From NCBI GenBank assembly GCA_029057785.1, contig JAIDZC010000042.1, forward strand, positions 1 to 43,835: a stretch of 43,835 nucleotides of DNA. The letters are read 5' to 3'. Positions 9,545 through 11,574 of this stretch are shown in pieces. Both the position numbers and the translations under genes were made by a program. The notes under the pieces were generated by a model. It ran no database searches, had not been told where the DNA came from, and was given only the letters and a program-made list of their open reading frames with translations. Source of the stretch: Anaeroplasmataceae bacterium. GTDB taxonomy: Bacteria > Bacillota_I > Bacilli_A > Acholeplasmatales > Anaeroplasmataceae. Position 1 is the stretch's first letter; each line of letters opens with the position of its first letter.

Positions 9545-10642
9545 TTATTCCTCTATTTCTAAACACTTTTGCAAAGCATCATTTTTATTTTCGACTTCAC
9601 CATTTAATATCAAGTTTTCTAAAAGCTTCGTAACCTTTCCTCTTTCTTTAGAAGCAACTCGGCTCCAATCAAAATCTATATCCTTAGAATTTTGAATAGG
9701 TAATGCTTTAATTCTTCTTTGAATATCTTCAACTAAAAGATTCGTTCCCTTTAATGCATTATAAAGTTCTACTGCTTCTTTCAACCATTTTAAGCTTCCA
9801 TAATATAAAGCTAGAGGATTAAAATCATTTCTAACCAAATAGGCAATGTCCTTTGCAAGCTTTATTTCTTGATTAGATATTTTTATGTTGGATGGTAAGA
9901 AATTGTGCTTACAAAAAAATAGTGCAAATATGTGCTTTGTATATTTTGTTTGATATGCTTCCTCACAAACCACCTGATAAAATGGAAATGCTCTAAATAT
10001 TTGATACTTGCTAATATATTTCAATCCAATAGGATAAGGATTACGAGCAATTTTTTCTATCATAGAAACTATATATTCTTCTTTAAGATAAGAAACATTG
10101 TCATAGACAAAACTTTTTAGAATATCATCATCTAAACAGTAATCAAAACGAGAAGCAAAATCTAACGCTCTTAGTACACGCAAGGCATCCTCATTAAAAC
10201 GAATTTTAGGATCTCCTATCATGCGAATTTTCTTGTTCTTTATATCCTCTATTCCATGATATAAATCCACAATCTTTCCTTCTCTATTCATCGCAAGAGC
10301 GTTCATCGTGAAATCTCGCCTAGATAAATCTTCTTCTAAAGTTTTTGCAGGAATACTTTGAGGATGTCTATGATCAATATAAGATACATCTCTTCGAAAC
10401 GTAGTCACCTCAAAGGTACACCCCTTATAGTGAATACGTGAACTTAGATAATTCTCTCCCTCCATTGAAACATCAGAAAAAATTTCTTTAATATCGCTAG
10501 GCTTGGCATTTGTCGTAAGATCAACATCTTTGATAGTGTCCTGTCTGATATAATCTCTAACCGCTCCACCTACAATATATGCTTCAAAGGAGTATTCATT
10601 CAATATATTTATAATTTCTAAGCCTAATTTCAATTTATCCAC
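9545..10642 (-). CDS. cca: CCA-adding tRNA nucleotidyltransferase
   Basis: The protein is 365 residues and a class II CCA enzyme or poly(A) polymerase-type nucleotidyltransferase that builds or repairs the tRNA 3' CCA end. The flexible loop and catalytic motifs are visible: GGAVRD (25-30), DVDLTT with metal-binding aspartates (39-44), the RRDFTMNALA motif near 108-117, and the neck region (RFNEDALRVLRALDFASRF). The start is GTG at 10642, with a GGTG ribosome site seven bases before it and almost no leader after the promoter. It heads a leftward run of six closely spaced genes. Some genomes split CCA addition between two enzymes, and that cannot be excluded here. Confidence 0.93.
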   Translation of the reverse strand: MDKLKLGLEIINILNEYSFEAYIVGGAVRDYIRQDTIKDVDLTTNAKPSDIKEIFSDVSMEGENYLSSRIHYKGCTFEVTTFRRDVSYIDHRHPQSIPAKTLEEDLSRRDFTMNALAMNREGKIVDLYHGIEDIKNKKIRMIGDPKIRFNEDALRVLRALDFASRFDYCLDDDILKSFVYDNVSYLKEEYIVSMIEKIARNPYPIGLKYISKYQIFRAFPFYQVVCEEAYQTKYTKHIFALFFCKHNFLPSNIKISNQEIKLAKDIAYLVRNDFNPLALYYGSLKWLKEAVELYNALKGTNLLVEDIQRRIKALPIQNSKDIDFDWSRVASKERGKVTKLLENLILNGEVENKNDALQKCLEIEE

Positions 10643-10659
10643 AAGTAAACACCAAATTA

Positions 10660-10711
10660 ATTATAAAACAAAACGAACCTATTTGCAAAGAAAAAATAAT
10701 CATTGTATAAT
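10660..10711. promoter_or_regulatory. Symmetric divergent promoter with one shared -35 (cca and yigZ)
   Basis: TTGCAA at 10683-10688 is its own reverse complement. Rightward, a 17-base spacer leads to TATAAT at 10706-10711 (yigZ). Leftward, a 17-base spacer leads to TATAAT on the minus strand (10660-10665; cca). Both -10 boxes are perfect and both spacers optimal. The expected start sites lie only about 10 bases from each start codon. Confidence 0.8.
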
Positions 10712-10727
10712 ATCTTTGGTGATATTT

Positions 10728-11357
10728 ATGAAATATATACAAGGAAAATGGGAAAATACGATAGTAATCCAAAAATCCAGATTTATTGCAGAGGCATATC
10801 GTGTGAACACTGTTGAAGAAATTGAAGAAATTTTGACTGCTATTCGTAAAAAATATTATGATGCAACACATCATTGTTTTGCCTATAGATTAAAGGATAA
10901 TATTCAAAAAATGAGTGATGACGGAGAACCAGCTAAAACTGCAGGAGCTCCTATACTAGATGTAATTTTAAAAAGAGATATCACAAATATTTTAGTTGTT
11001 GTTACTCGTTATTTTGGTGGAATTCTTTTAGGGGTAGGAGGCTTGGTAAGAGCCTATAGTGGAGCTGCCAGTGCTGTATTAGATCAAGCACCTTTATACA
11101 AGCTTTCTGAACAGAACAAATTCCAGCTGACTTGTAGCTATTCTTCCTATCAAACAATATTAAAAACAATGAAATATATACAAATAGAAAATACCTCATT
11201 TTTAACTGAGGTAACAATTCTAGGCTATTGTAAAAAAGAACTTTTTTCAAAACTGAAAGAGGATTGTTATACATATAAAATAGGAGATACACAAATTATG
11301 GATTTGGGCGTATTTCCAATCGAGGTTCCTGATGATGATGGTACTTTAATCGAGTAG
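10728..11357 (+). CDS. yigZ: YigZ/IMPACT family protein
   Basis: The protein is 209 residues, close to B. subtilis YvyE (about 217). The N-terminal UPF0029 core shows SRFIAEAYRVN, the HHCFAYRL segment, DDGEPAKTAGAPIL and TRYFGGILLGVGGLVRAYS, all typical of YigZ/IMPACT proteins. A ferredoxin-like C-terminal DUF1949 domain follows. The family is linked to translation control and may act on nucleotide or peptide substrates, but the molecular role is unsettled. The ATG at 10728 is chosen because GGTGA precedes it and the promoter -10 ends at 10711; an earlier in-frame ATG at 10683 would lie in the promoter. The 3' end overlaps the convergent spoIIID by 62 bases. Confidence 0.93.
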   Translation: MKYIQGKWENTIVIQKSRFIAEAYRVNTVEEIEEILTAIRKKYYDATHHCFAYRLKDNIQKMSDDGEPAKTAGAPILDVILKRDITNILVVVTRYFGGILLGVGGLVRAYSGAASAVLDQAPLYKLSEQNKFQLTCSYSSYQTILKTMKYIQIENTSFLTEVTILGYCKKELFSKLKEDCYTYKIGDTQIMDLGVFPIEVPDDDGTLIE

Positions 11358-11574
11358 CCTCTCCGCCACGTAAATGGCGGATTTTTTTATTATATTCTAA
11401 AAGCTCCTTAACCTCTTCATAAAGCAACGGATCAATTTTTTCTAGCTTAGTCGTTAAATCATGATGGACTGTTGATTTGGAATACCCTATTCTTTTAGCA
11501 ACCTCCCGAACTGTTCTTCTCCCCTCTAACATTAAATAGGCCATTTCTAATACCCGTGATTCATTTTCAATCAT
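11296..11574 (-). CDS. spoIIID: Sporulation transcriptional regulator SpoIIID
   Basis: The protein is 92 residues, the usual size. It holds the SpoIIID helix-turn-helix (RTVREVAKRIGYSKSTVHHD) and the family signature NKKIRHLRGGEATRLKY, which binds DNA with a basic C-terminal helix. In Bacillus, SpoIIID acts in the mother cell to switch on sigK and tune sigma-E genes. The ATG at 11574 has AGGTGA six bases upstream. The gene sits downstream of spoIIQ in the same order as B. subtilis. The last codons extend into the convergent yigZ gene, giving a histidine/proline tail (YHHHQEPRLEIRPNP) that differs from the usual acidic end. A mother-cell promoter is expected upstream, but I could not read one confidently. 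Confidence 0.95.
   Translation of the reverse strand: MIENESRVLEMAYLMLEGRRTVREVAKRIGYSKSTVHHDLTTKLEKIDPLLYEEVKELLEYNKKIRHLRGGEATRLKYHHHQEPRLEIRPNP
11363..11387 (+). terminator. yigZ terminator embedded in spoIIID coding sequence
   Basis: The stem CCGCCA/TGGCGG with a 6-base loop and a run of seven T lies six bases past the yigZ stop. On the other strand the same bases encode the conserved HLRGGE core of SpoIIID. Confidence 0.85.

Follow-up and report, generated by a model that had tools for sequence, protein, structure and literature searches.

Bidirectional promoters as described by Warman, Grainger and colleagues carry a common, near-symmetric -10 element with transcription starts 7-25 bp apart (PMC10268837, PMC12825309), and such two-way promoters with a common -10 are now known to be frequent. 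At the divergent fepA/fes promoters (PMC4469952) the polymerases are near enough to compete for DNA; in the accessible part of that source supercoiling is the topic, and a palindromic common -35 with equal spacers does not appear there. For a two-way promoter with a common -35 no direct precedent was found in the literature. From its sequence elements, the gap between cca and yigZ analyzed here is a back-to-back pair with a common candidate -35, a conserved case that forms a variant beside the known common -10 kind. As in the Warman/Grainger promoters, symmetry would let the polymerase use one element in either orientation, binding in one would exclude binding in the other, and mRNAs are made both ways (here predicted). 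Unlike in those promoters, it is the -35 that would be common while the -10s are separate. These -10s are 40 bp apart and thus do not overlap reciprocally, and the predicted starts lie about 65 bp apart, outside the range of 7-25 bp. Both predicted promoters fall within an 85-bp gap and are closer than one polymerase footprint, which places them among back-to-back overlapping promoters.

The window, that is the whole stretch of 43,835 nucleotides that was analyzed, is part of a 1.76-Mb Anaeroplasmataceae genome of an uncultured mollicute (G000). In it cca and yigZ are divergent and 85 bases lie between them. The cca gene heads a run with a type I pullulanase gene, a YhaM-like gene, two unknown genes, pheS and a next gene, which is probably pheT. 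The features are as follows.

9545..10642, minus strand: cca, CCA tRNA nucleotidyltransferase (NF009814, E 4.6e-69, below the curated cut-off)
10649..10653, minus strand: GGTGT, cca ribosome site, read from the sequence, at the predicted 5' end
10660..10665, minus strand: TATAAT, predicted cca -10 (ATTATA on the top strand), from the promoter scan; identical in 9 of 10 genus genomes
10666..10682, minus strand: cca spacer, 17 bp, from the alignment of seven species
10683..10688, both strands: TTGCAA, palindromic candidate common -35, from scan and alignment
10689..10705, plus strand: yigZ spacer AGAAAAAATAATCATTG, 17 bp, from the alignment of seven species
10706..10711, plus strand: TATAAT, predicted yigZ -10, from the promoter scan; identical in 10 of 10 genus genomes
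10718..10722, plus strand: GGTGA, yigZ ribosome site, read from the sequence, at the predicted 5' end
10728..11357, plus strand: yigZ, IMPACT/YigZ family (TIGR00257, E 2.2e-48, 164.5 bits against a cut-off of 167.95)
11362..11381, plus strand: terminator-like hairpin 3' of yigZ

The ATG start of yigZ at 10728 is kept across relatives; cca starts with GTG at 10642, and relatives show ATG at the aligned position. As a side observation, cca diverges much faster than its neighbours: in G007 and G004 it is 56-58% identical, against 81-83% for yigZ and 76% for the pullulanase.

The original prediction had placed a perfect TATAAT on either side of the palindromic TTGCAA, at a distance of exactly 17 bp, and its coordinates and spacings proved exact. 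In the promoter scan both promoters are among the joint best matches between 9 and 13 kb, each with 10 of 12 positions, TTGCAA itself agreeing with TTGACA in 4 of 6. Single promoter-like matches in the scanned region do not exceed chance (19 against an expectation of 16.9), and being no commoner than in shuffles they would suit the explanation that AT-rich DNA merely looks symmetric here. What exceeds chance is the symmetric triple, together with its conservation: ATTATA-N17-TTGCAA-N17-TATAAT occurs once in the window without a mismatch, whereas a shuffled window is expected to hold 0.05 such triples even when up to two mismatches are allowed.

The triple, with spacers of 16-18 bp, was found in 7 of the 11 genus genomes, once per genome and solely at cca/yigZ. 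The cca/yigZ locus itself was found in 10 genus genomes, and the seven species with the layout (G000, G001, G002, G004, G006, G007 and G010) all have the spacing 17/17. Among these seven there is not one change in TTGCAA, in either -10 or in the entire yigZ spacer. In the cca spacer 7 of 17 columns vary while the length is 17 throughout; the eight bases adjoining the -10 are nearly invariant and the remainder is variable. This constancy stands against fourfold sites of yigZ that share 86, 63, 55, 45, 44 and 37% identity with the window in the other six species, the three most distant being down to 37-45%, and against a cca protein identity that drops to 55%. The upstream regions of both genes have high identity for the divergence of the proteins, although they are approached by a few others in the window. 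Since both -10s, TTGCAA and the yigZ spacer are unchanged despite the low fourfold identity, the element is under selection, and a palindromic hexamer 16-18 bp from both -10s is kept in all seven species. That the orthologous place keeps the layout in seven species despite near-saturated fourfold sites leaves a mere resemblance in AT-rich DNA extremely improbable, and shuffles and conservation together rule out chance as the source of the conserved layout.

A tree calculated with FastTree from eleven concatenated proteins has the topology (G009,(G008,(G003, seven species))), in which the carriers of the layout form one clade. Alignment of the relatives, as originally proposed, gave a divided answer: seven species keep TTGCAA and both 17-bp spacers, and G003, G008 and G009, all outside the layout clade, have lost or lack the palindrome or the spacing with the genes still divergent, which the original prediction had named as grounds for refutation. 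In these three the distance from the cca -10 to the yigZ -35, counted by eye, is 29 bp (G003), 28 bp (G008) and 31 bp (G009), and the yigZ -35 reads TTGAAA, TTGCAA and TTGTAA, respectively. The common -35 thus probably arose via a deletion of 11-12 bp on the branch to the seven species. The yigZ half would be the older and fixed one, the deletion in the seven-species ancestor would have put the cca -10 at 17 bp, and the -35 captured in this way already was, or later became, palindromic. In genus g2, too, cca and yigZ are frequently divergent; in several genomes the -10s lie about 33-34 bp apart, cca has an extended -10 (TGATATAAT, TGGTATAAT) and the yigZ -35 is TTGAAA. This comparison indicates that the tight cca/yigZ pair is old and that the common -35 is one recent form of it. 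If so, cca/yigZ illustrates how a promoter can capture the -35 of a neighbour through deletion, and the sister species, which hold the same genes before the change of 11-12 bp, offer a natural before/after comparison of sharing.

We consider it probable, with moderate confidence, that the gap holds a compact back-to-back pair of sigma-A promoters in which TTGCAA serves both genes. RNA polymerase bound one way would use TTGCAA-17-TATAAT and make the yigZ mRNA; bound the other way it would read TTGCAA on the opposite strand and make the mRNA of the cca operon. The usable palindrome and the fixed 17/17 spacing support the claim that one -35 can serve both genes. In G003 and G008 the cca -10 and eight adjoining bases are the same and no better -35 is present at 16-18 bp; as these two species keep the left -10 without a clear -35, the cca promoter may work without TTGCAA. 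It is accordingly possible, though we hold it to be rather unlikely, that TTGCAA is used by yigZ only, that cca is driven by its -10 with the aid of the adjoining T-rich TTTTGTTT, and that the 17 bp on the left are a by-product of the deletion. This would agree with the retention of TTTTG(A/T)TTTATAAT in G003 and G008 and with genus g2 and G009, in which the left promoter shows an extended -10 (TGATATAAT, TGGTATAAT or TGATATACT) but lacks a common -35. Moreover, G008 keeps TTGCAA in the absence of the left 17-bp spacing, so conservation of the hexamer is explicable by yigZ alone. However, the extended TGn was lost in the seven species, where the spacer holds its length of 17 while its letters vary, and there has been no drift to TTGAAA, a commoner -35, which would break the left copy. 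The constant length of the cca spacer is suggestive, not strong, as a sign that cca uses the common -35. Even with use by yigZ only, the two promoters may exclude each other through overlapping footprints.

The invariance of the yigZ spacer exceeds, as far as the seven aligned species indicate, the usual expectation for sigma contact. Conservation might instead reflect a protein operator at the palindrome or at the spacer, rather than contact with sigma, since 17 invariant nucleotides in seven species are unusual for a spacer and TTTGCAAA is an 8-bp palindrome. We regard this as improbable, because the invariant stretch beyond TTTGCAAA is non-palindromic and no regulator gene was recognised adjoining the locus. 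In addition, a regulon would require further copies of the 30-bp yigZ promoter, but with up to three mismatches allowed the genome contains no second one, and a genome-wide motif was rejected. As a separate observation on the yigZ spacer (10689-10705 of the window), ATAATCATTGTATAAT recurs at G000:C15:80580.

TTGCAA would be a moderate -35 in this genome. The pattern TTGNNA-17-TATAAT has 110 sites in G000, while the reversed pattern has 26 and a spacer of 23 bp gives 43, and by our own count TTGACA and TTGAAA make up nearly half of the sites listed. For TTGCAA-17-TATAAT 9 sites were found against 4 at the control spacer, an excess of about twofold, from which the hexamer is graded as a moderate -35, a cost of palindromy.

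With +1 set seven bases past each -10, the predicted starts are 10653 (cca) and 10718 (yigZ). The predicted leaders are 10-11 nt long and both open with GGTG, in line with the expectation of starts about 10 bases before the start codon and of a ribosome site that opens the transcript; the first G of GGTG would be the first base of both mRNAs. Over 889 kb of sequence from the genus and the family, GGTGA with a start codon peaks 5-7 nt past TATAAT (mode 6; 22 of 62 sites within 40 nt), several of these sites being yigZ orthologues, and AGGAG is rare before 10 nt past TATAAT. Within 444 kb of G000 the start codon of 12 genes lies 14-18 nt past the end of a TATAAT, with GGTG in 10 of them, and among the divergent family sites listed, TATAAT and GGTGA are 6-8 nt apart in 96 of 102 (the pattern allowed 3-8). 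By these counts, mRNAs that open with the ribosome site and have a leader of about 10 nt seem to form a regular class here. GGTGA may represent the 3' half of a full ribosome site, which would fit the short gap to the start codon. Genes with AGGAG have longer leaders than the GGTGA class.

Since the -10s are 40 bp apart, holoenzyme footprints would overlap whether or not the -35 is a palindrome, and only one complex would be accommodated at a time. Competition between cca and yigZ is thus plausible. It is possible rather than expected, because five two-way promoters of natural strength in E. coli showed no competition, which appeared only after strengthening of one direction (PMC12825309). We propose, tentatively and with considerable doubt, that a common -35 made by deletion and then retained works, with no regulator protein involved, as a built-in switch that lets either yigZ or the cca operon (tRNA CCA-end synthesis, pheS) be transcribed, or else sets the ratio of the two, and that comparable arrangements evolved independently between further divergent genes of the family.

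Of the 44 other family genomes, 11 contain the triple, at 12 scattered sites in all, and none of these is at yigZ. With GGTG on one side it occurs in 6 of the 346 genomes of the class; five of the six belong to the genus and one is a stray, by which the layout was ruled out as a trait of the family or class. G018 and G036 have the same symmetric TTGCAA layout, with spacers of 16-18 bp, between a peptide deformylase gene and an unknown gene, and this pair has GGTG leaders on both sides (L083 and L088, 1501-1552). In design and leaders cca/yigZ resembles this and other compact divergent promoters of the Anaeroplasmataceae; the genes differ. Recurrence at an unrelated pair supports the layout as a usable design. 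Two matches at MscL/VanZ (L084, L085) lie partly within or near coding ends and are less clear.

A favoured distance of 40 bp between -10s was rejected: among the 102 divergent family sites, which are the matches listed with coding-looking rows left out, distances spread over 26-50 bp with no clear peak at 40. At L109:12409-12497 (G000:C14:72409-72497) the -10s of another divergent pair overlap in ATTATATAAT, and 17 bp from each stands a separate TTG -35; this is a common -10 arrangement like that of the published bidirectional promoters. Divergent -10 pairs with GGTGA leaders and a central AAAACGACAACTTTTTTAT-like block were seen at G012:C114:18046-18123, G014:C11:1622-1699, G024:C122:6520-6598 and G037:C6:26668-26733; conservation of this block between the divergent genes may mark it as an operator.
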